Below are positions 42,056-54,577 of a stretch of DNA of 64,000 bases, in pieces; within the stretch, counting starts at the first letter, position 1, and each line of letters starts with the position of its first letter. The DNA lies in the NCBI RefSeq assembly GCF_001045555.1, contig NZ_LFBU01000001.1:992001-1056000 (forward strand), written 5' to 3'. The stretch is from Marinobacter subterrani (GTDB lineage: Bacteria; Pseudomonadota; Gammaproteobacteria; Pseudomonadales; Oleiphilaceae). Below the pieces are notes generated by a model. It had not been told where the DNA came from and made no database searches. It worked only from the letters and a program-made list of their open reading frames with translations. The position numbers and the translations under genes were made by a program.

Positions 42056-43798
42056 TTAGCGGGCCTCTTCCCAGGTTTTCAGCAGTTCGTCATAGGCAAC
42101 CGTCTTGCCTTGCGGCTTCTCGTTAGCCAGTTTCGGCTTGGGCGCACCCGGCTGATCCAGCCAGTATTGCGGGTCGCGTGGCTCGTTCAGCTTCGGACCA
42201 CAGGTCGGCTGAACACTGGCACGCTCCAGGCGCTCCATAACCCGGTCCTGGGCTTCCGCCAGACCATCCAGGGCTTTCTGCGGAGTTGCCTCGCCGCTGG
42301 CAGCCTGGGCAATGTACTGCCACCAGAGCTGAGCCAGCTTGGGATAATCAGGCACGTTGGTGCCGGTTGGCGACCACTGAACACGGGCCGGGCTGCGGTA
42401 GAACTCCACCAGGCCACCCAGTTTGGGCGCCAATTCAGTCATCGCATCGGAATTGATATCAGATTCGCGGATCGGCGTCAGACCGGCGATGGTCTTCTCC
42501 AGGGAAACCGTCTTGGAAACCGTGAACTGGGCATACAGCCAGGCGGCCAGGCGGCGCTTCTGCGGAGTCGACTTCATGAAGGTCCAGGAACCCACGTCCT
42601 GATACCCCAGCTTCATGCCCTCTTCCCAGTAGGGTCCGCGGGGCGACGGCGCCATGCGCCATTTCGGGGTGCCATCTTCGTTCACCACTGGCAGACCGTC
42701 TTTGATCATGCTTGCGGTAAACGCGGTGTACCAGAAGATCTGCTGGGCAATGTTACCCTGCGCCGGCACCGGGCCCGCTTCCGAGAAGGTCATGCCCTGG
42801 GCTTCGGGAGGCGCGTACTTTTCAAGCCAGTCCACGTATTTCTGGGTTGCGTAGACAGCAGCGGGGCCATTAGTTGCGCCACCACGGCTGACACTGGAGC
42901 CAACCGGATGACACTCGTCAACACGGATGCCCCACTCATCCACCGGCAGACCATTTGGCAGACCCTTGTCGCCGGCACCGGCCATGGAGAACCAGGCATC
43001 GGTAAAGCGCCAGCCCAGTGACGGGTCCTTCTTGCCGTAGTCCATGTGGCCGTATACACGCTTACCGTCGATTTCTTTCACATGAACCGAGAAGAACTCG
43101 GCAATATCCTCATAGGCGGACCAGTTGACGGGCACGCCCAGCTCGTAACCGTAGATTTCCTTGAACTGTTTCTTCAGGTCCTCACGCTCAAACCAGTCCG
43201 CACGGAACCAGTAGAGGTTGGCGAACTGCTGGTCCGGCAATTGATACAGCTTGCCATCCGGGCCGGTGGTGAAATCCAGGCCAATGAAATCGTCGAGATC
43301 AAGCGTTGGCAGGGTCAGATCCTTGCCTTCGCCCTTGATGATGTCCTCCACCGGGAACACCTTGCCATAGCGGAAGTGGGTACCGATCAGGTCGGAGTCA
43401 TTAACCCAGCCGTCGTAGATATTCCGGCCGGACTGCATCTGGGTCTGCAACTTCTCGATAACGTCACCTTCCTGAATCAGCGTGTGTGTCAGGTTGATGC
43501 CGGTAATTTCAGAGAAGGCCTTGGCCAGAACGTTGGATTCGTATTCGTGCGTGGCAATGGTTTCCGAAACAACGTTGATATCCATGCCGCGGAACTGCTT
43601 CGCAGCTTCGATAAACCACTTCATTTCTTCCATTTGCTGTTCTTTGGTCAGGGTCGACCGCTTGAACTCCTGATTCACCCACTTTTCAGCCGCATCCGTG
43701 TACTGATCAGCGCTGGCCTGCAGGCTTGAACCCATGCCTACAGCACCTATGGCGGCACTCAGAAGCAGGGCTCCAGGATATTTATTGTTCTTGAACAT
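42056..43798 (-). CDS. glpV: GlpV-type glycerol ABC solute-binding protein
   Basis: Large periplasmic binding protein of 580 residues in the family of GlpV, the binding subunit of the Rhizobium glpSTPQUV glycerol importer. It has a signal peptide (ALLLSAAIGAVGMGSSLQAS), then YQLPDQQFANLYWFRADWF, GYELGVPVNWSAYEDIAEFF and a C-terminal PKPKLANEKPQGKTV. The start is ATG 43798 with AGG 6 bases upstream. It is the last gene of the importer operon, separated from glpU by 223 bases that hold a GlpR-like site, so it may also have its own promoter. A diverged copy lies at 56286-58037. Confidence 0.88.
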   Translation of the reverse strand: MFKNNKYPGALLLSAAIGAVGMGSSLQASADQYTDAAEKWVNQEFKRSTLTKEQQMEEMKWFIEAAKQFRGMDINVVSETIATHEYESNVLAKAFSEITGINLTHTLIQEGDVIEKLQTQMQSGRNIYDGWVNDSDLIGTHFRYGKVFPVEDIIKGEGKDLTLPTLDLDDFIGLDFTTGPDGKLYQLPDQQFANLYWFRADWFEREDLKKQFKEIYGYELGVPVNWSAYEDIAEFFSVHVKEIDGKRVYGHMDYGKKDPSLGWRFTDAWFSMAGAGDKGLPNGLPVDEWGIRVDECHPVGSSVSRGGATNGPAAVYATQKYVDWLEKYAPPEAQGMTFSEAGPVPAQGNIAQQIFWYTAFTASMIKDGLPVVNEDGTPKWRMAPSPRGPYWEEGMKLGYQDVGSWTFMKSTPQKRRLAAWLYAQFTVSKTVSLEKTIAGLTPIRESDINSDAMTELAPKLGGLVEFYRSPARVQWSPTGTNVPDYPKLAQLWWQYIAQAASGEATPQKALDGLAEAQDRVMERLERASVQPTCGPKLNEPRDPQYWLDQPGAPKPKLANEKPQGKTVAYDELLKTWEEAR

Positions 43799-43891
43799 AT
43801 CCAACCTCGTTCGTCTTGTTTTGAGTGGAACGAATCACCGGGTGCTCCGTTCCGGTTGCATAGCGCCTTCGAGTCGCTATCCGTTGAAGCC

Positions 43892-44021: not shown

Positions 44022-44297
44022 TCAGCCCCAGCGCATCAGCACAAGAAGCCAGATCACCGAAACGGCTAACGCGATCCAGAGCGTGATATCACTGACCGCA
44101 AGGAAGGTCAGATGGATATAGGCCGCGGAAAGCAGCCCGATAAACAGCCTGTCCCCGCGGGTGGTCGAGATCGGCAGAAAGCCCTTCCGTTCGGTGCACG
44201 GTGAAACAATTTCGTACACGGTCATGATCGCCAGTATGGTTGCAATCACAGAGAAAAAAATCGCCACGGACGGAGTCCAATTCATCCAAGCAAGCAT
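44022..44297 (-). CDS. glpU: GlpU-like small membrane protein (DUF2160)
   Basis: Small hydrophobic protein of 91 residues with three likely membrane helices (VAIFFSVIATILAIMTVYEI, LFIGLLSAAYIHLTFLAV and TLWIALAVSVIWLLVLM). It belongs to the DUF2160 family, which is a regular member of glpSTPQUV operons as GlpU; its role is unknown. ATG 44297 is chosen because GGAG lies 7 bases upstream; the ATG two codons earlier is too close to it. It follows glpQ by 15 bases. Confidence 0.82.
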   Translation of the reverse strand: MLAWMNWTPSVAIFFSVIATILAIMTVYEIVSPCTERKGFLPISTTRGDRLFIGLLSAAYIHLTFLAVSDITLWIALAVSVIWLLVLMRWG

Positions 44298-44312
44298 GTT
44301 CATTCTCCTTTT

Positions 44313-45119
44313 TTATACCCGTCCGAGGGCGAACCCGGTGGCGACATGGTTACGAACGAACCAGATCACCAGGATTCCGGGAATGATGGTGAGCGAGCCG
44401 GCGGCCGCCAGCACACCCCAGTCGATACCGCTGGCACCCACTGTTCGCGTCATCACCGCACCAATGGGAATGGCATCCACCGAGGTCAGCGTTCGGGCCA
44501 GCAACAACTCCACCCAGGAAAACATGAAGGCAAAGAACGCCGTGACCCCGATTCCGGAGCGGATCATCGGCAGAAAAATCTTCACGAAGAACCTGGGAAA
44601 GCTGTATCCATCAATGTAGGCCATCTCGTCGTATTCGCGAGGCACCCCGGACATGAAACCTTCCAGGATCCACACCGCCAGTGGCACGTTGAACAGGCAG
44701 TGCGCCAGCGCCACCGCGAGATGGGTGTCGAACAGGCCTATGGAGGAATAGAGCTGGAAGAACGGCAGCAGGAACACTGCCGGCGGCGCCATCCGGTTGC
44801 TCAGCAACCAGAAGAACAGGTGTTTGTCACCCACGAACTTGTACCTGCTGAAGGCATAGGCAGCAGGCAAAGACACCAGCAGGGTGATCACCACGTTCAT
44901 GGAAACGTAGATCATCGAGTTGATGTAGCCGTTGTACCAACTCGGATCCGTGAAAATGACCTCATAGTTGGCAAGGGTAAAATCCTCAGGCCAAAGAGTC
45001 AGGCCACTGAGAATTTCCTGGTTGGTCTTGAATGACATGTTCAGCAACCAGTAGATCGGTGTCAGCAGGAGCAGGATAAAAATCGTGATCCCGACGTTCT
45101 TGGAACGCGTCTGTTTCAT
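44313..45119 (-). CDS. glpQ: GlpQ-type glycerol ABC permease
   Basis: Inner-membrane ABC permease, 268 residues, with about six helices and the EAA loop (REYDEMAYIDGYSFPRFFVK) that contacts the ATPase dimer. By position and size it corresponds to GlpQ of the Rhizobium glycerol importer. AGGAG is 6 bases before ATG 45119. It follows glpP by 10 bases. The name is shared with an unrelated phosphodiesterase in E. coli. Confidence 0.88.
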   Translation of the reverse strand: MKQTRSKNVGITIFILLLLTPIYWLLNMSFKTNQEILSGLTLWPEDFTLANYEVIFTDPSWYNGYINSMIYVSMNVVITLLVSLPAAYAFSRYKFVGDKHLFFWLLSNRMAPPAVFLLPFFQLYSSIGLFDTHLAVALAHCLFNVPLAVWILEGFMSGVPREYDEMAYIDGYSFPRFFVKIFLPMIRSGIGVTAFFAFMFSWVELLLARTLTSVDAIPIGAVMTRTVGASGIDWGVLAAAGSLTIIPGILVIWFVRNHVATGFALGRV

Positions 45120-45129
45120 CACAGTCTCC

Positions 45130-45996
45130 TTATTTTTCTTTGTCGGCAGCAGTAATGGCGGTGAAGAACAGCCATGAAATCAGCAGCACGATCAGGAAGT
45201 AGATCAGCGAGAAGGCCGCTGCCCGGCCGAGGTCGAACTGGCCGACCGCCATGGTGGTCAACGTCTGGCTCAGGAAGGTGGTTGAGCTTCCGGGGCCGCC
45301 GCCGGTCAGAACAAAAGGCTCGGTGTAGATCATGAAGCTGTCCATAAAGCGCAGCAACACGGCGATGATCAGAACATTCTTCAGGCGCGGTAGCTGGATG
45401 TAACGGAACACCGCCCACCTGGAGGCACGGTCAATCTCCGCGGCCTGGTAGAAGGCTTCCGGAATCGCCCTCAGGCCGGAGTAACACAACAGGGCCACCA
45501 GGGGTGTCCAGTGCCAGACATCCATCAGCAACACGGTCAGCCAGGCATCCAGGGTGTCACCGGTATAGTTGTAATCAAACCCGATCGCGTTCAACGCCCA
45601 GCCGAACAGGCCAATATCGCCGCGGCCGAAGATCTGCCAGATGGTGCCCACCACGTTCCAGGGAATCAGCAGCGGAATCGCCAGCAGGATCAGGGCCAGG
45701 GACGCCTTGATGCCTGATTTCGGCATCATCAGTGCCACCCCGATGCCGAGTGGAATCTCGATCAGCAGTACCGCACCGGAGAAAATGAACTGCCGCAGGA
45801 GGGACTCCTGAAGCCGCTCATCATGGAGAATGATTTCGAACCATTCGGTACCAACGTAATAGGCGTTACCGGGCCCGAAAATATCCTGTACCGAGTAGTT
45901 GACCACTGTCATCAGTGGGATCAGCGCCGAAAAAGCCACCAGCAGGAAGACCGGAAGGACCAGCCACCAGGCGCGATTGTTGGGAATTTTGACCAT
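45130..45996 (-). CDS. glpP: GlpP-type glycerol ABC permease
   Basis: Inner-membrane ABC permease of 288 residues. Six helices are evident (first LVLPVFLLVAFSALIPLMTV), with the EAA-type loop around PEAFYQAAEIDRASRWAVFR. It pairs with GlpQ to form the channel. Its ATG overlaps the glpT stop by one base (TAATG), with AAGGAG 9 bases upstream, so coupling to glpT is expected. Confidence 0.88.
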   Translation of the reverse strand: MVKIPNNRAWWLVLPVFLLVAFSALIPLMTVVNYSVQDIFGPGNAYYVGTEWFEIILHDERLQESLLRQFIFSGAVLLIEIPLGIGVALMMPKSGIKASLALILLAIPLLIPWNVVGTIWQIFGRGDIGLFGWALNAIGFDYNYTGDTLDAWLTVLLMDVWHWTPLVALLCYSGLRAIPEAFYQAAEIDRASRWAVFRYIQLPRLKNVLIIAVLLRFMDSFMIYTEPFVLTGGGPGSSTTFLSQTLTTMAVGQFDLGRAAAFSLIYFLIVLLISWLFFTAITAADKEK

Positions 45997-47096
45997 TATT
46001 GTTGCTCCTTGATCAGGAACTCATCCACGTAGAGCATCAGCCACTGCTTGGGAAACGACAGATGCACCACCCCGCCAATTTCCGCTTCAAATTCTTCGTT
46101 CTGGCGGGCTTTCAGCGTTTCGTGGCCGAGTTCGACGGTGACAATCTTGTAAGTGCCCAGATCTTCGACATCGAGGACTGTAGCCTCAAAGGTTTCATCA
46201 GTGGCCTGATCAGAAACCTCGACAAACTCCGGGCGTATGCCGATCTTGAGATTGCTGGTTTTCTGGCGTTGCAGAACCTCCACCTGCCATTCATCCAGAG
46301 GCACCACGATGCTGCCGAAACAGACACCGCGCGGGCAGCGCTGTACCTCGATCAGGTTCATGCCGGGGCTGCCGATGAAGAAGCCCACAAAGGTGTGGTT
46401 CGGCCGCTCAAACAGCTCGGTCGGGGTTCCGAACTGAACGATTTGGCCGCCGTACATCACCGCGATCTTGTCGGCGAACGTCGAAGCCTCCAACTGGTCG
46501 TGCGTGACATAGACCATGGTGATGTCGAATTGCTCGTGAATCTGCTTCAGCTTGCGCCGGAGTTTCCACTTGAGCTGGGGGTCGATCACCGTCAGCGGTT
46601 CATCGAACAGAATGGCGGATACGTCTTCCCGGACCAGGCCACGCCCCATGGACACCTTCTGCTTTTCATCGGCCGTGAGATTCTTGGCCTTCTTGTAAAG
46701 CTTGTCCTGAATTTCCAGGACTTCGGCAATTTCGTGAACCCTCGCCTTGACCCGGGACGCTTCAACCCCGTTGTTCCGCAACGGAAAAGCCAGGTTATCG
46801 AACACGGTCATGGAGTCATAGATCACCGGGAACTGGAAGACCTGTGCAATGTTCCGGTCCCTGGGGGACAGTTCGTTGACCCGCTTGCCATCAAACAGAA
46901 CGTCCCCCTCCGACGGCTGAAGCAGGCCGGAGATAATGTTCAGCATGGTGCTCTTGCCACAGCCGGACGGGCCCAGCAGCGCGTAGGCTCCGCCCTTATC
47001 CCAGACATGATCGAGGTGCCGGATAGCATAATCATCCGGGCCGTCCGGCGTGTCACTGTAACTGTGAGCGAGTGATTTCAGTTGAATCTCAGCCAT
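45996..47096 (-). CDS. glpT: GlpT-type ABC ATPase with degenerate signature motif
   Basis: ABC ATPase of 366 residues. Walker A is canonical (GPSGCGKST, 42-50), as are the Q-loop (VFQFPVIYDSMTV), Walker B (AILFDEP) and H-loop (YVTHDQ, His199). The signature is not LSGGQ but LTADEKQ (140-146), so its contribution to the partner's ATP site should be poor. The C-terminal regulatory domain is MalK-like (FFIGSPGMNLIEV). It forms a heterodimer with GlpS, whose defects are complementary. Its start overlaps the glpS stop by one base (TGATG). The name refers to the ABC system, not the E. coli antiporter. Confidence 0.9.
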   Translation of the reverse strand: MAEIQLKSLAHSYSDTPDGPDDYAIRHLDHVWDKGGAYALLGPSGCGKSTMLNIISGLLQPSEGDVLFDGKRVNELSPRDRNIAQVFQFPVIYDSMTVFDNLAFPLRNNGVEASRVKARVHEIAEVLEIQDKLYKKAKNLTADEKQKVSMGRGLVREDVSAILFDEPLTVIDPQLKWKLRRKLKQIHEQFDITMVYVTHDQLEASTFADKIAVMYGGQIVQFGTPTELFERPNHTFVGFFIGSPGMNLIEVQRCPRGVCFGSIVVPLDEWQVEVLQRQKTSNLKIGIRPEFVEVSDQATDETFEATVLDVEDLGTYKIVTVELGHETLKARQNEEFEAEIGGVVHLSFPKQWLMLYVDEFLIKEQQ

Positions 47097-48190
47097 CAGG
47101 CAGCCCTCTTTGATGTCTCGGACGGGGTGTGCACCAGCTGTTCATTGCTGTCGAATACGAACAGCTTGTTGATCGGCAGATAAATCTTGATGGGTGAACC
47201 GGTCCGGTAGGAATGCACACCCATCAGTTGAGCGACCATCTCGAAATGGCTGTTCTGGACGTGCATGAAGGTCTCGGAACCACTGATGTCGCTGAGCTCA
47301 ACCTCCATCGACATTTCCAGGTCGTCATCACTGGTGGGTACCAGGCCGATGTGACTCGGCCGGATGCCGAACCAGTAGTCCCCGGGCGCGAGCTTCGACA
47401 GTTCCCGGGTCAGGCCGTGGTGCGAGTATTCATCGAAGGTGACCTCGGTATCGGTAACTCGGCCGCGAATCATGTTCATTGGCGGCTCGCTGAACAGCTC
47501 GGCTGCCAGAGTGTTGGTGGGCGCCCGATAGACACTCATGACCGGCCCGGTCTGAACCACGCGGCCCTCATGCAGGAGCGTGGTGGTTCCCCCAAGAGCG
47601 AGTGCCTCGTTGGCCTCCGTGGTGGCATAGACCGCAATACACTGGCGCTCCTGGAACAGTTGGCGGAGCTCCGACCGCAGCTCTTCCCGGAGCTTGTAGT
47701 CAAGGTTCACCAGGGGTTCGTCGAACAGCACCAGCGTGGCATCCTTGACCAACGCCCGGGCCATGGCACACCGCTGCTGCTGGCCGCCCGACAGCTCCAG
47801 CGGATAACGCTTGAGCAGAGGGTCAATCCGGAGCATCGCGGCGGTTTCCCGAACTCGACGTTCGATCTCACTGTCCGGCATTTTCGCCAGCCGCAGCGGC
47901 GATGCGATGTTCTCAAACACCGTCAGGTTGGGGTAGTTGATAAATTGCTGGTAAATCATCGAGATGTTCCGCTGCTGGACAGCCTGCCCGGTAACATCCT
48001 CGCCGTTATAGACAAGGCGGCCTTCGGAGGGCTTGTCCAGCCCGGCCATCAGTCGCATCAGAGAGGTTTTACCAGCCAGTGTGCGTCCAAGCAGAACATT
48101 GAATGAACCTGCCTCGAAGGTCAGGTTGGCATCCCGGATGTAGTCGACACCGTCGACCTCACGGGAGATATTCTCCAGTGTTAAGGACAT
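47096..48190 (-). CDS. glpS: GlpS-type ABC ATPase lacking the switch histidine
   Basis: ABC ATPase of 364 residues, first gene of the glycerol importer operon. Walker A fits only the minimal pattern (GRTLAGKT, 35-42). The signature LSGGQ (133-137) and Walker B with its glutamate (LVLFDEP) are intact, but the H-loop reads VYATTEANEA, with Thr191 in place of the histidine. It should therefore supply a good signature to GlpT's nucleotide but hydrolyse its own poorly. AAGGAA lies 5 bases before ATG 48190; the frame extends 26 residues upstream into the sigma-54 promoter leader, which is not coding. Confidence 0.9.
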   Translation of the reverse strand: MSLTLENISREVDGVDYIRDANLTFEAGSFNVLLGRTLAGKTSLMRLMAGLDKPSEGRLVYNGEDVTGQAVQQRNISMIYQQFINYPNLTVFENIASPLRLAKMPDSEIERRVRETAAMLRIDPLLKRYPLELSGGQQQRCAMARALVKDATLVLFDEPLVNLDYKLREELRSELRQLFQERQCIAVYATTEANEALALGGTTTLLHEGRVVQTGPVMSVYRAPTNTLAAELFSEPPMNMIRGRVTDTEVTFDEYSHHGLTRELSKLAPGDYWFGIRPSHIGLVPTSDDDLEMSMEVELSDISGSETFMHVQNSHFEMVAQLMGVHSYRTGSPIKIYLPINKLFVFDSNEQLVHTPSETSKRAA

Positions 48191-48522: not shown

Positions 48523-50400
48523 ATGAGAAAAAACGAATACTCCGATTACCGACGCGTGATCGCCGACTCCTGGAACCGCTGCATTGCATGGGGCCTCAGC
48601 CATGAACATGAACCGGCGGCTCCCGAACCGGAGGCGGGGCGGCTGGAGGAAATTCAGCGCCTGCATGGCGAGTTACTTGCGGTGACCGAAGCCGAGGTAC
48701 TGCCCTACTACCGGAACGTGCTCGCCAACAGCCGCTGCCTGATTCTGCTTGCCGATCAACATGCCACGGTGCTGAATAGCTGGGGTGACGAACGCATTAC
48801 GGAAACCCGCCTGAAGCCCTGGTTCCAGAAAGGTGCCAACTGGCAGGAGCAGAACTGCGGGACCAATGCCATCGGGACAGCGATTGCCATCGGCGCACCG
48901 GTCCAGATCAAGCGCAACGAGCATTTCCTGAAGGCCAACCGCAGCATTATCGGCTCCGCCGCCCCGATTTTTGATGCCCACCGGCAAATTGCCGGCGTTC
49001 TAAGCGTTTTCAGCGACGCTTACCTGCCCCAGGCTCATACCCTGGGCATGGTTCGCCTGCTTTCCCAGTCTGTGGAAAACCGTCTGATCAGTCGCCAGTT
49101 CGGCCCGGACCATTTCCAGATAACGGTCAATACCACCGCCGACAACTTCGACAGCCCCTGGTCGGGTATCCTTGCCAGCGACGACTCCGGGCGGATTATT
49201 GCCAGCAACCAGCGGGCGGATCAGTTGCTTGGAATGCCAACGGTCAATGCACGCCTGGATGAATTGTTCACCACCCATCGAAACCATATTCTTGGTTATC
49301 GCGAACAGGAGCCGCTGCAGCTGACAACGCGGAGCAAGGTTCGGCTGAGCGCCCGAATAAAGCGGCCGTCTCTGCCAGAAAAGCCTCCGGAGCGAACGCA
49401 ACAACCATCCGGGACCGGCAATACCGTGCAGAGTGGGCTCCAACCCGACATAGACCACCTGGAGTTCGGCGATTCGGCCGTGAAGCGCTGCGCCACCCAG
49501 AGCCTCAAGGTACTTGAGCGCGGCGTGCCGGTGCTTATTACAGGAGAAACCGGGGTGGGAAAAGAAGTCCTGGTCAAGGCGCTGCACCAGGCCTCGCACC
49601 GCAAGGATCAGCCCCTGATGGCGGTAAACTGCGCCGCCATTCCACCGGAGCTGGTGGAGTCGGAGCTGTTCGGATACGAGCCCGGAGCCTTTACCGGAGC
49701 CCGCGCTCAGGGCTCCCTGGGCTTTATCCGGAAGGCTCACAAGGGCATTCTGTTCCTCGATGAAATCGGCGAAATGCCGCTTTCGGCACAGTCCCGCCTG
49801 CTGAGGGTTTTGCAGGAACGGGTTGTCACTCCGGTCGGTTCCACAGAGAGCGTTCCCGTCGATATCCTGCTGGTAACCGCCACCAACCGCCCCCTCAATT
49901 CACGCATTGATGATGGCCATTTCCGCGCTGACCTCTACTACCGCATCAATGGCTTGTGTGTGGAGCTGCCATCACTCCGGCACCGGGCCGACCGGCGACG
50001 CCTGATACAAAACATCTATGCCCGGCACCGGGATCCCTGCCAGGCGGAAGAGCTGTCTCCGAAGGTGCTGTCGGCGCTTGAAAACCATCCCTGGCCGGGC
50101 AACATCCGCCAACTGGTGAATGTACTTCGGGTGGCCGTGGCGATCGCTGACGGTGAAGACATTCAGGTCTGGCACCTGCCAGAGGACTTCCTGGCCGAAT
50201 TCGATTCGGCGGCGAACAGCGAGACCAGCCCGGAAACCCGAGCGCAGGCAGAACACACCGGCCAGGCGGAAGCGGACCCGCTGGCCCGAACGCTGCAGGT
50301 CTATCACAAGTACACCGGGAATATATCCCAGGCAGCCAGAGAGCTGGCGATCAGCCGGAACACCCTTTACAAGCGGCTTCGGGAACTTGGAGTTCGCTAA
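48523..50400 (+). CDS. AcoR-like sigma-54 enhancer-binding activator (GAF-AAA-Fis)
   Basis: Sigma-54 dependent activator of 625 residues in the AcoR-like class. An N-terminal GAF-type sensor (about 55-195; NCGTNAIGTAIAIGAPVQI is typical) is followed by a PAS-like linker and the AAA domain with Walker A GETGVGKE (341-348), the sigma-54 contact motif GAFTGA (388-393) and GILFLDEIGEMP. A Fis-type helix-turn-helix (NISQAARELAISRNTLYKRL) ends the protein. It diverges from glpS, whose promoter is of sigma-54 type, so it very probably activates the importer. The ligand is not known. It converges on glpK. Confidence 0.9.
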   Translation: MRKNEYSDYRRVIADSWNRCIAWGLSHEHEPAAPEPEAGRLEEIQRLHGELLAVTEAEVLPYYRNVLANSRCLILLADQHATVLNSWGDERITETRLKPWFQKGANWQEQNCGTNAIGTAIAIGAPVQIKRNEHFLKANRSIIGSAAPIFDAHRQIAGVLSVFSDAYLPQAHTLGMVRLLSQSVENRLISRQFGPDHFQITVNTTADNFDSPWSGILASDDSGRIIASNQRADQLLGMPTVNARLDELFTTHRNHILGYREQEPLQLTTRSKVRLSARIKRPSLPEKPPERTQQPSGTGNTVQSGLQPDIDHLEFGDSAVKRCATQSLKVLERGVPVLITGETGVGKEVLVKALHQASHRKDQPLMAVNCAAIPPELVESELFGYEPGAFTGARAQGSLGFIRKAHKGILFLDEIGEMPLSAQSRLLRVLQERVVTPVGSTESVPVDILLVTATNRPLNSRIDDGHFRADLYYRINGLCVELPSLRHRADRRRLIQNIYARHRDPCQAEELSPKVLSALENHPWPGNIRQLVNVLRVAVAIADGEDIQVWHLPEDFLAEFDSAANSETSPETRAQAEHTGQAEADPLARTLQVYHKYTGNISQAARELAISRNTLYKRLRELGVR

Positions 50401-50430: not shown

Positions 50431-51903
50431 TCAGAGTTTCTGTACCGCCGTTATCCAGCCCTCGTAAAGCTGGTCCCGGTGTTCTTTGGTCATCACCGGC
50501 TCAAAGTTACGGTCGCAACGCCACAGCCCGGCCAACTCCTCAAGAGAGCCATAGACCCCCGCCTCAAGGCCGGCCAGGTAAGCGGCTCCCAGCGCTGTTG
50601 TCTCGACCAGTGACGGGCGATCCACCCGGGCGCCGAGGATATCCGCCAGGAACTGCAAAACCCAGTTGTTGGCCACCATACCGCCATCCACGCGCAAGGT
50701 CACCGGGCGTATGCCATCTTTCTCCATGGCTTTTTGCAGGTCCTTCGTCTGGTAACACACCGACTGGAGACCGGCAGTGACAATTTCCTTGATGCCGGTA
50801 TCCCGGGTCAGGCCGAAAATGGCACCGCGAGCATTCGGATCCCAATAGGGTGCGCCGAGGCCGGTAAATGCCGGCACCAGATAGACACCGTGATCCACCG
50901 GCGTTCCCTCGGCCAGAGGTTCGGTCTCGCAGGCATCACGGATAAGCCGCAAACCATCCCTTAGCCACTGGATGGTCGCACCGGCTATAAAAATACTGCC
51001 CTCCAGCGCGTAGGTAGGCTTGCCATTTATCCGATAGGCCACCGTGGTCAGTAGGCGATGCTCCGACTGCAGGGCCTTGTCGCCGGTGTTCAGCATCAGG
51101 AAACACCCGGTTCCGTATGTGCTCTTTGCCATTCCGATGCTGAAACAGGTCTGGCCGAACAGCGCCGCCTGCTGATCCCCGGCGATACCCAGCACACGGG
51201 TTCCGTTCAGTGCGCCACCCTGGGCGATCTGCCCGAACTGATCGGCGGAATCCATGACTTCCGGCAGCAAGGATTCGGGAATACCAAAGAGCTCCAACAG
51301 TTCCGGATCCCACTGCTGGGTGTGGATATTGAACAGCAGGGTCCGACTGGCGTTGGTGGCGTCGGTACGATGTTCACGGCCGCCCGTCAGTCGCCAAAGC
51401 AAAAAGCTGTCGATGGTGCCAAAGGCAAGTTCACCGCGTTCCGCTCTCTCTCTTGCACCGGCAACATTTTCCAGAATCCAGCGAATTTTTGTGGCCGAGA
51501 AATAGGGATCAATCAGCAGGCCCGTCTTGCCGCTCACCAGGGGCTCAAGGTCCTGGCTTTTCAGAGACTCGCAGTAAGACGCGGTTCGCCGGTCCTGCCA
51601 GACGATGGCGTTATAGACCGGCTCCCCGGTTTTCCTGTCCCACAGAATGGTGGTTTCGCGCTGGTTGGTAATCCCTGCCGCGATAACTTCATCATCCTCT
51701 GCGCAGGCTTCCGACATCACGGCGTCACAGGTCTGCCGGACCGACGACCAGATGTCTTCGGGATCATGTTCCACCCAGCCACTGGCCGGGAAGTGTTGGG
51801 GAAATTCCTGCTGGCGCGTGGCGTGAATGTTACCTTGCAGGTCAAAGAGTATTGCCCGGGAGCTGGTAGTTCCCTGATCGATGGAAAGAATGTACTGGCT
51901 CAT
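50431..51903 (-). CDS. glpK: Glycerol kinase
   Basis: ATP-dependent kinase that makes sn-glycerol 3-phosphate. It has 490 residues, the usual length, with the FGGY-family start [18 protein letters not shown], substrate-site [10 protein letters not shown] and [10 protein letters not shown], and the C-terminal [20 protein letters not shown]. The start is ATG 51903 (MSQYIL), with GAGG upstream. It is divergent from glpR, and its upstream region holds GlpR-like half-sites. Convergent with the sigma-54 activator gene. Confidence 0.96.
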
Positions 51904-51927
51904 TGTGATTTGCACCTCGGGTTCTTA

Positions 51928-51958: not shown

Positions 51959-52108
51959 ATTCCAAGAGAATTCCACTTCCATTGCGCACGGACGAAAGGC
52001 AACTCACTAAAAAAGCTGCATAAACCCCGGGAAACCACTAAACTTTGAAGATGTTTTCGGTTGCACACTATTTCGCATGAGAAAAATGACAAAGCGGGGG
52101 AGGTATTA

Positions 52109-52867
52109 ATGGCACAGCGTCGCCGACAGGATCTGATCATGGAGCTGATCCAGCAGAACGGTTTTGTAACCACCGAGCAACTGGTGGACCAGTTCAAGGT
52201 AACGCCGCAGACTATCCGCCGGGATCTCAACGAACTTGCGAAACAGAAGAAGCTCCGCCGTCACCACGGAGGTGCCGGTATTGACTCCAGCACCGTGAAC
52301 ACCGCTTACCAGGCCCGCAAGATCATGGACCTTGAAGCCAAGGAACGCATCGCCGAAGCGCTGGTGGACATGATTCCGGATAACTCCTCCATGTTCATCA
52401 ACATTGGCACCACCACTGAAACCATCGCCAAGGCGCTGCTGGAAAAGAACAACCTGCAGATCGTCACCAACAACCTCCATGTTGCCTCCATTCTCTCGGC
52501 CAAAGAGGATTTCCACGTGATCATAGCCGGAGGCGAAGTTCGCAACCGGGATGGCGGCATTGTGGGCGAGGCCACCCGCGATTTTATCAACCAGTTCAAG
52601 ATGGATTTTGGCATCATCGGGATCAGCGGCATCCATAACGACGGCTCGCTGCTGGATTTCGACTATCGCGAAGTCCGGGTCGCCCAGGCAATCATCGAGA
52701 ACTCCAACCAGGTTCTGCTGGCAGCGGACCACTCCAAGTTCGGCCGAAATGCCATGGTGCGCCTGGGCAGCATCACGCAGGCGAACCACGTGTTCACCGA
52801 TCAGCAGCCTCCGCTGGAAATCCGCCAGCTTCTGACCGAACACAACGTCGAACTCCACCTCGTCTAG
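52109..52867 (+). CDS. glpR: GlpR, DeoR-family glycerol-3-phosphate repressor
   Basis: DeoR-type repressor of 252 residues, the standard GlpR length. The N-terminal winged helix ([20 protein letters not shown], then [20 protein letters not shown]) is followed by the sugar-phosphate sensor domain ([50 protein letters not shown]). GGGGGAGG lies 7 bases before ATG 52109. It is placed between glpK and glpD. GlpR-like operators are found across the window, including one in the eno-tpiA promoter. Confidence 0.95.
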
Positions 52868-53047: not shown

Positions 53048-54577
53048 ATGACTATGGAGCACGAACAGTTTGACGTTATTGTCGTTGGCGGTGGAGTCAA
53101 CGGCACAGGCATTGCCATGGATGCCGCGGGGCGAGGGCTGAAAGTTCTGCTCTGCGAAATGAATGACCTGGCCTCTGCCACTTCGTCGAGCAGCAGCAAG
53201 CTGATACACGGCGGGCTGAGGTACCTTGAGCATTATGAATTCCGGCTGGTCCGGGAAGCACTGGCCGAACGCGAGTCACTGCTCAGGAACTCGCCACACA
53301 TCATGTGGCCCATGCGCTTTCGCCTGCCACACCGCCCTCACCTGCGACCCGCCTGGATGATCCGCACCGGTTTGTTTCTTTACGATCATCTGGCGAAGCG
53401 CGAAATCCTGCCGGGATCCCGCTCAATCCGCTTCGATGAAAGCGGACCGCTGAAGCCCGATATCACCAAAGGCTTTGAATACTCCGATGGCTGGGTTGAT
53501 GACGCCCGGCTGGTCGTCCTCACCGCCAAAAAGGCCCAGCAATTCGGTGCCCGGATCATGACCCGCACCAAATGTGTGAAGGCTGAACGGGGAGCCAGAG
53601 AGTGGTTGGTCACGCTCCGTGACATGACCAACGAAACCGAAACCCGGGTCTCGGCGAAAGCAATCGTCAATGCCTCCGGCCCCTGGGTCAGCAAGCTGTT
53701 CGGTGAAACGCTTTCCATGCCGGCTCCGAAACTGATTCGCATGGTCAAGGGCAGCCATATTGTGGTGCCGCGACTGAACAAGGGTACCGAAGCCTATATT
53801 CTGCAGAACGAGGACGAGCGCATTGTCTTCGTCATTCCCTACGAAGACGAGTTTTCCCTGGTTGGCACAACCGATGTGGACTACGAAGGGGATCCCAGGA
53901 AGGCGAAAATCTCGCCGGAAGAAACCGACTATCTGTTGAACATCGTAAACTCGCATTTCAGGCGTCAGCTTCAGCCGTCAGATGTGGTCTGGTCCTACTC
54001 CGGCGTTCGCCCGCTGATGGATGGCGAGGAGGAAAACGCGCAGAAGGCATCCCGGGACTACTCCTTCGAAGTCAGCAGCGAAAAGAACAAGGCGCCGATT
54101 ATTTCCGTGTTCGGCGGCAAGATTACCACCTATCGCAAACTGGCCGAGGCGGCAACCGACAAGCTGTGCCAGTTCTTCCCGGAAGCGGGAGGCCGGTGGA
54201 CCAAAAAGGCCGTGCTGCCCGGCGGCGATTTCGACAACCACGCATCGCTCGAGGAGAAGCTGCGCAGTGACTTCCCGTGGCTTCCGGAGAAGATCATCAG
54301 CCGTTATGTTCGAACCTACGGCATGACGTCCTATGACATCCTGCGCAATTGCACCTCGATCGAAGACCTGGGAGCCCACTTCGCAGGCACCTTGTACGAA
54401 AAGGAAGTGCTGCACCTGGTGAAAAACGAGTGGGCAATGACATCCGATGACATTCTCTGGCGCCGGACCAAACAGGGCCTCTACGCAACAGACAGTGAAG
54501 TTGAAGCTTTGGACCGATTCCTGATGAACGCAGCAGCACCCCGGGCTCGCAACACCGCTCTCCACCACAGCGCCTGA
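53048..54577 (+). CDS. glpD: Aerobic glycerol-3-phosphate dehydrogenase
   Basis: FAD-dependent membrane-associated dehydrogenase that oxidises glycerol 3-phosphate to dihydroxyacetone phosphate and passes electrons to quinone. It has 509 residues, normal for GlpD. The N-terminal dinucleotide fold is DVIVVGGGVNGTGIAMDAAG, followed by SSSKLIHGGLRYLEHYEF, FSLVGTTDVDYEGDP and the C-terminal GGKITTYRKLAEAA. GGAG precedes the ATG. A terminator with a T run follows at 54597-54631. Confidence 0.96.
   Translation: MTMEHEQFDVIVVGGGVNGTGIAMDAAGRGLKVLLCEMNDLASATSSSSSKLIHGGLRYLEHYEFRLVREALAERESLLRNSPHIMWPMRFRLPHRPHLRPAWMIRTGLFLYDHLAKREILPGSRSIRFDESGPLKPDITKGFEYSDGWVDDARLVVLTAKKAQQFGARIMTRTKCVKAERGAREWLVTLRDMTNETETRVSAKAIVNASGPWVSKLFGETLSMPAPKLIRMVKGSHIVVPRLNKGTEAYILQNEDERIVFVIPYEDEFSLVGTTDVDYEGDPRKAKISPEETDYLLNIVNSHFRRQLQPSDVVWSYSGVRPLMDGEEENAQKASRDYSFEVSSEKNKAPIISVFGGKITTYRKLAEAATDKLCQFFPEAGGRWTKKAVLPGGDFDNHASLEEKLRSDFPWLPEKIISRYVRTYGMTSYDILRNCTSIEDLGAHFAGTLYEKEVLHLVKNEWAMTSDDILWRRTKQGLYATDSEVEALDRFLMNAAAPRARNTALHHSA

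Follow-up and report, generated by a model that had tools for sequence, protein, structure and literature searches.

Conserved asymmetry of ATP-site motifs in the GlpS and GlpT ATPases of a putative glycerol ABC importer of Marinobacter subterrani

The stretch of DNA analysed here (the window) consists of 64,000 nucleotides of Marinobacter subterrani, contig NZ_LFBU01000001.1, positions 992,001 to 1,056,000, and carries on its minus strand two adjacent genes for MalK-type ATPase subunits of an ATP-binding cassette (ABC) transporter. glpS (47096..48190, 364 aa) encodes a subunit that has an intact signature and is without the switch histidine. glpT (45996..47096, 366 aa) encodes one with intact Walker A and H-loop and a degenerate signature and D-loop. 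Each ATP site of an ABC dimer is formed by the Walker A and B motifs and the A-, Q- and H-loops of one nucleotide-binding domain (NBD) together with the signature of the other (PMC7756269). The question raised by this locus is whether such a pair of ATPases works with two ATP sites or with one.

In GlpS, the Walker A sequence is GRTLAGKT (residues 35–42; 48065..48088, minus strand, as are all motif coordinates that follow) with the Lys retained, and the signature is LSGGQ (133–137; 47780..47794). The Walker B Asp157-Glu158 (47717..47722; DEP at 157–159) keeps the catalytic Glu, and Thr191 (47618..47620; ATTE at 189–192) replaces the H-loop His. GlpT shows Walker A GPSGCGKS (42–49; 46950..46973), Walker B DEP at 165–167 and the H-loop His199 (46500..46502; VTHD at 197–200), together with the degenerate signature LTADEKQ (140–146; 46659..46679) and a D-loop TVID (169–172; 46581..46592). 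The alignment places GlpS Thr191 opposite GlpT His199, and GlpS LSGGQ opposite GlpT LTADE. All motif residues claimed for the two proteins in a preliminary description of this DNA are correct, in minus-strand open reading frames. The TVID D-loop, which departs from the SNLD of control ATPases, is a further change that the description did not include, and it falls in the same composite site. The description also termed the GlpS Walker A minimal. It is altered relative to the canonical motif but still fits GxxxxGK[ST], with Lys and Thr retained.

Combined in trans in a head-to-tail dimer, the Walker A, Walker B and H-loop of GlpT and the LSGGQ and D-loop of GlpS would make a complete, consensus site that hydrolyses ATP. 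The GlpS Walker A and B, with Thr in place of His, would be combined with the L[TS]ADxK signature and TVID D-loop of GlpT in a degenerate site, where nucleotide would be held and hydrolysis would be slow or nil. Such a site may serve as a structural hinge or gate, and a transport cycle would likely cost one ATP, not two. It is thus probable, judging from the sequences, that GlpS and GlpT are the obligate heterodimer of a type I importer, with one hydrolytic site and one that holds nucleotide and is weakly hydrolytic or non-hydrolytic. The sole complete site would be found in the heterodimer, because the switch His would be missing from a GlpS homodimer, and a proper signature from one of GlpT. 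According to the preliminary description the second site lacks both elements. This holds for the switch His and the proper partner signature, but the nucleotide-binding core (Walker A Lys, Walker B Asp-Glu) is retained, and since the P-loop Lys and Asp-Glu of GlpS are kept, a bound and little-hydrolysed ATP is suggested. For exporters, a review infers that ATP in the degenerate site keeps the closed dimer stable and acts as a hinge (PMC7756269), and release of ATP without hydrolysis has been deduced for ABCB1 carrying an ABCB11-like site (PMC7544095).

The same motifs are found well beyond the window. The 162 loci compared comprise the window, 29 loci from a phylum search of 398 genomes (the window's own copy, L001, omitted), 79 from a scan of genome contigs, and 53 more from the 398-genome search, taken by coordinates. 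All have GlpS, which was the search query, and 159 have GlpT. Those left out of the pairs are L002 (the same as L069), L083, L087 and L108 (insufficient GlpT on the stretch), and L085, in which the glpT frame of Marinobacter similis A3d10 (a complete genome) is interrupted, representing either a sequencing error or a lost gene. There remain 157 non-redundant complete pairs, whose counts share ancestry, e.g. 43 of the 79 contig-scan loci are titled Marinobacter. The H-loop place of GlpS is Thr in 153, Ser in four and His in none. The GlpS signature [LI]SGGQ, the Walker A pattern Gly-x-Thr-x-x-Gly-Lys-Thr and the Walker B Asp-Glu are each found in 157/157. GlpT likewise shows Walker A Gly-Lys-[Ser/Thr] and the TVID D-loop in 157/157, and the H-loop His in 156/156 readable sequences, one being unreadable. 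SGG is missing from every GlpT. Its first Gly is replaced by Ala (147), Ser (6) or Pro (4), and the second Gly place holds Asp in 156 and Ala in one. The sixth signature place is Lys in all 157, and the fifth carries an acidic residue in 61 (59 Glu, 2 Asp). The loss of SGG is seen in every pair, but the exact letters LTADEK given in the preliminary description are not, as Glu at the fifth place is found in just 59/157. Joint conservation of Thr for His and of the altered GlpT signature, which it named as a check, is seen in 157/157 pairs (the four with Ser for His included) and in 8/8 pairs from plasmids. The case it named as refuting, a pair in which GlpS retains His and GlpT retains LSGGQ, is not present among these 157 complete and 8 plasmid pairs.

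The control ATPases differ. They were taken from 30 loci of a UgpC-family search of 120 genomes and from 15 ABC-ATPase stretches of the window's own genome, five of which gave no row. Of the 42 aligned control rows (one gene is present twice, as L190 and L200), 42 show the switch His and SGG, two of them with SGGM instead of SGGQ, and all 31 MalK/UgpC-type controls show His and SGGQ. Since 157/157 pairs deviate while 31/31 of these controls keep both elements, it is confirmed that the asymmetry is neither chance nor a local mutation. Decay of a dispensable operon is hardly credible as the source of the odd motifs. The interrupted frame of L085 is what such decay would look like at one locus, but the motifs are near-invariant while identity to the window drops to about 43% (GlpS) and 48% (GlpT) in the most distant pairs, and the same motifs recur in Streptomyces.

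The deviations cluster in one composite site. At places that are at least 95% invariant in the 31 MalK/UgpC-type controls, 17/36 deviate in the site made of the GlpS nucleotide-binding elements and the GlpT signature and D-loop, vs 3/36 in the other site (Fisher p = 4e-4, a descriptive value, as the tested positions are not independent). At the remaining domain positions deviation is similar in the two proteins (18/52 and 19/52). Non-consensus elements concentrated in one composite site are characteristic of degenerate-site transporters. The exporters TAP (ABCB2/B3), TM287/288, TmrAB, ABCB11, ABCG5/G8 and CFTR (ABCC7) also have unlike NBDs with one consensus and one degenerate composite site, and the changes are spread over both NBDs, since each site is composite (PMC7756269). 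These systems differ from GlpS-GlpT in carrying out export and not import, and loss of the catalytic Glu is described as a hallmark for them (PMC7544095), but the Glu is present in 157/157 GlpS. Patterns vary among the exporters: ABCG5/G8 is altered in the signature and the Walker A Lys (PMC7756269), and G1178R and Q1180E are among four differences in the degenerate site of ABCB11 (PMC7544095). In our reading both of these ABCB11 differences lie in the signature, and the place of Q1180E is the GlpT place that shows Glu in 59/157.

The conserved residues of GlpS also fit a different explanation, in which a competent hydrolytic site of another kind is built from Thr191 and the ADxK signature, and both sites turn over. 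All 157 GlpS retain the Lys of Walker A and the Asp and catalytic Glu of Walker B, a Glu whose loss is described as the hallmark of a degenerate exporter site (PMC7544095). The switch His and the partner SGG are, however, missing in every complete pair. No ABC ATPase is known to us in which Thr or Ser replaces the function of the His, although no search aimed at this was made. Two active sites thus appear unlikely.

The degenerate site could instead be empty, or could contain a regulatory nucleotide such as ADP, with GlpT Asp143 repelling the gamma-phosphate. In keeping with this, 156/157 GlpT have Asp in place of the second signature Gly, a change that we take to correspond to G551D of CFTR, which is a loss-of-gating mutation. 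The degenerate sites of RbsA and NupO are without the Walker A Lys (PMC11466899), so an importer should be able to tolerate an empty site. But GKT and DE are fully conserved in GlpS (157/157), which suggests selection for nucleotide binding, and an Ensifer plasmid locus (L212) keeps the second Gly in its T subunit and loses the first (LTAGEKQ), so that Asp is not universal. An empty or regulatory site is considered rather improbable.

The two genes are found together. In the search of 398 Pseudomonadota genomes with a cut-off of 1e-90, GlpS is above the cut-off in 83 genomes and GlpT in 85. The two genomes with GlpT alone above it (G047, G115) have an adjacent GlpS with the same motifs below the cut-off, and both proteins are present in 85/85 GlpT-bearing genomes. 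In the tree GlpS forms one clade and GlpT another, each on a long stem. In favour of the pairing, the distance matrices of GlpS and GlpT agree over the 157 pairs (Mantel r 0.94; 0/999 shuffles as high). That GlpS and GlpT act as separate homodimers alternating on the permeases is very improbable, as both sites of either homodimer would be incomplete and the genes are adjacent and both present in every GlpT-bearing genome. Nothing was found in favour of it.

Single-chain AlphaFold models of GlpS and GlpT are confident (predicted local distance difference test, pLDDT, 89.1 and 89.3) and display the complete MalK fold in both, i.e. a predicted NBD and C-terminal OB/TOBE regulatory domain as in the MalK-type (CUT1) family. 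By Pfam, TOBE_2 and OB_MalK are above cut-off in GlpT, and in GlpS just OB_MalK is seen, below its cut-off (20.9 vs 27 bits). The nearest solved structures by sequence give about 220 bits with each protein.

Several points weigh against a heterodimer with one hydrolytic site. The agreement of the GlpS and GlpT distance matrices is no proof of contact because any co-inherited genes give such a result. The retained catalytic Glu of GlpS makes slow hydrolysis at the degenerate site possible. The loci were collected by similarity to the window GlpS, and distant homologues with other motifs could escape such a search. The reading draws on the sequences and single-chain models of GlpS and GlpT. A candidate contact across the degenerate site is not claimed. 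Of the 61 pairs with an acidic residue at GlpT signature place 5, 59 have Arg as the second residue of the GlpS Walker A, and a salt bridge between Arg36 of GlpS and the acidic residue 144 of GlpT was considered. A tree of 114 thinned pairs contains only five independent pairs on supported branches. One of them goes in the same direction, none in the opposite one, and four do not differ. A control pair located elsewhere (GlpT Walker A Ser vs GlpS Arg, outside the site) behaved likewise.

In a small group of loci, the two halves of the degenerate site show linked changes. In L152, L157, L159, L208 and L209, GlpT LSPDNKQ is found together with GlpS YATSEP, in which Ser is the switch residue, and with a GlpS Walker A that has Gly as its fourth residue. 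Three of the five (L152, L157, L208) are in the tree and form one clade. The linked changes may be a single event, although this is suggestive only.

The asymmetric pair is also found in a second type of operon. A search of plasmids with GlpS gave 255 records, of which two were analysed (L210, L211), and one with a Streptomyces relative gave 986 records, where six of the 15 matches listed were analysed (L212–L217). All eight plasmid pairs display the asymmetry. Three loci (L211, L215, L216) have the GlpSTPQUV gene set, and five are of the second type: L210 and L217 (Streptomyces), L212 (Ensifer), L213 (Ponticoccus) and L214 (Tabrizicola). In these five, glpU, glpK and glpD have no match within the 8.6–13 kb analysed per locus, and the permeases share merely 25–31% identity with GlpP and GlpQ. 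The order in the three annotated loci of this type is alcohol dehydrogenase, solute-binding protein, two permeases and two ATPases, and two of the three have a divergent sigma-54 regulator. In an 87-row tree (five long control rows omitted), the second-type S (support 98), second-type T (96), GlpS (97) and GlpT (67) form separate clades. An earlier tree with fewer such pairs placed the Streptomyces S outside all GlpS and the Streptomyces T inside the GlpT clade (support 85). Four more second-type pairs were added for the 87-row tree, and the support of the GlpT group was then just 67. As the second-type ATPases show the asymmetry and group beside GlpS and GlpT, the asymmetry seems to predate the split of the two transporter types, and the pair was apparently kept as a unit while the permeases diverged. 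A T query from L213 gave a single match in each of the 85 genomes, out of 398 from Pseudomonadota, that GlpT had also matched, and thus the second type, seen on plasmid records only, looks rarer. Being plasmid-borne, the Streptomyces copies may have been transferred between phyla.

The remaining genes of the locus point to a glycerol importer. Transcription on the minus strand runs glpS, glpT, glpP (45130..45996) and glpQ (44313..45122), both permeases with BPD_transp_1, then glpU (44022..44303), a small membrane protein with DUF2160, and glpV (42056..43804), a solute-binding protein with SBP_bac_1. Beside these genes are a sigma-54 activator (48523–50400, plus strand) divergent from glpS, an FGGY-family kinase (50431–51915, minus strand), a DeoR-type regulator (52061–52867, plus strand), and an FAD oxidoreductase whose C-terminal domain is of the glycerophosphate-oxidase type (53048–54577, plus strand). 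We read the last three as probable glpK, glpR and glpD, because the kinase and the oxidoreductase share 55% and 48% identity with the annotated glpK and glpD of Rhizobium leguminosarum and because of the gene set of its plasmid locus, with which the window agrees in both set and order. GlpP, GlpQ and GlpV of the window are 68, 77 and 66% identical to their R. leguminosarum counterparts. Among L031–L109, 66 loci span 13,000 bases or more, and glpU is present in all 66. Glycerol as the substrate of GlpSTPQUV comes from R. leguminosarum work cited in PMC7912956. With the S-T-P-Q-U-V order beside glpR-, glpK- and glpD-like genes, the transporter of the window appears to be a GlpSTPQUV glycerol ABC importer, transport of glycerol being carried over by analogy from R. 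leguminosarum. The sigma-54-dependent activator lies near the GlpR-type regulator, and the operon may be under two types of control.

How does this pair compare with known systems? MalK/UgpC-type systems, i.e. CUT1 type I importers such as MalFGK2, LpqY-SugABC and AlgS, use two copies of a single ATPase and have two canonical sites. GlpS and GlpT share with them the full MalK fold (as predicted), Walker A and B, the Q-loop, and an operon with a solute-binding protein and two permeases. The difference lies in two ATPase genes and non-canonical motifs, where all 31 controls show SGGQ and His. The preliminary description held that such asymmetry is seldom discussed for importers. RbsA and NupO have been described as importer ATPases with one degenerate site, but they belong to type II importers, are fused polypeptides and have lost the Walker A Lys of the second site, and thus are not a separate-gene MalK-type pair (PMC11466899). 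The E. coli dipeptide importer also has two different ATPase genes, but DppD and DppF both contain functional motifs and both can hydrolyse when DppA is present (PMC12136057). The glpSTPQUV operon of R. leguminosarum and Rmet_2229-2234 of Cupriavidus metallidurans have two ATPases, two permeases, a small membrane protein and a solute-binding protein, as does the window, and the excerpts of PMC7912956 contain no mention of ATP-site asymmetry for this operon. glpSTPQUV clusters have also been reported from Pseudodesulfovibrio (PMC11505543). Nothing on single-site function was found in the excerpts of PMC8134467 and PMC8603345. Among the matches listed, the open-licence literature gives no account of ATP-site asymmetry in GlpS/GlpT or in a MalK-type importer, although absence there is weak. 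Degenerate ATP sites are well known, but in the glycerol/MalK-type importer family they have apparently gone unremarked.

We hold it an evenly balanced proposition that these pairs represent an ancient MalK-type importer lineage, for glycerol and one or more further substrates, in which one ATP is hydrolysed per cycle and the second site is nucleotide-loaded and switch-less. Such a lineage would be the type I counterpart of the TAP/CFTR asymmetry with a degeneracy pattern of its own, the His and the signature glycines being lost and the catalytic Glu kept. If true, importers whose ATPases are encoded by separate genes also evolved asymmetric ATP sites, in a pattern unlike the usual one of exporters. 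The maltose importer, with its two equal sites, is the ABC machine of the textbooks, and a natural, conserved one-site relative would contrast with it. One vs two ATP per cycle of a type I importer, and the purpose of the degenerate site, would then be directly testable with simple growth assays.

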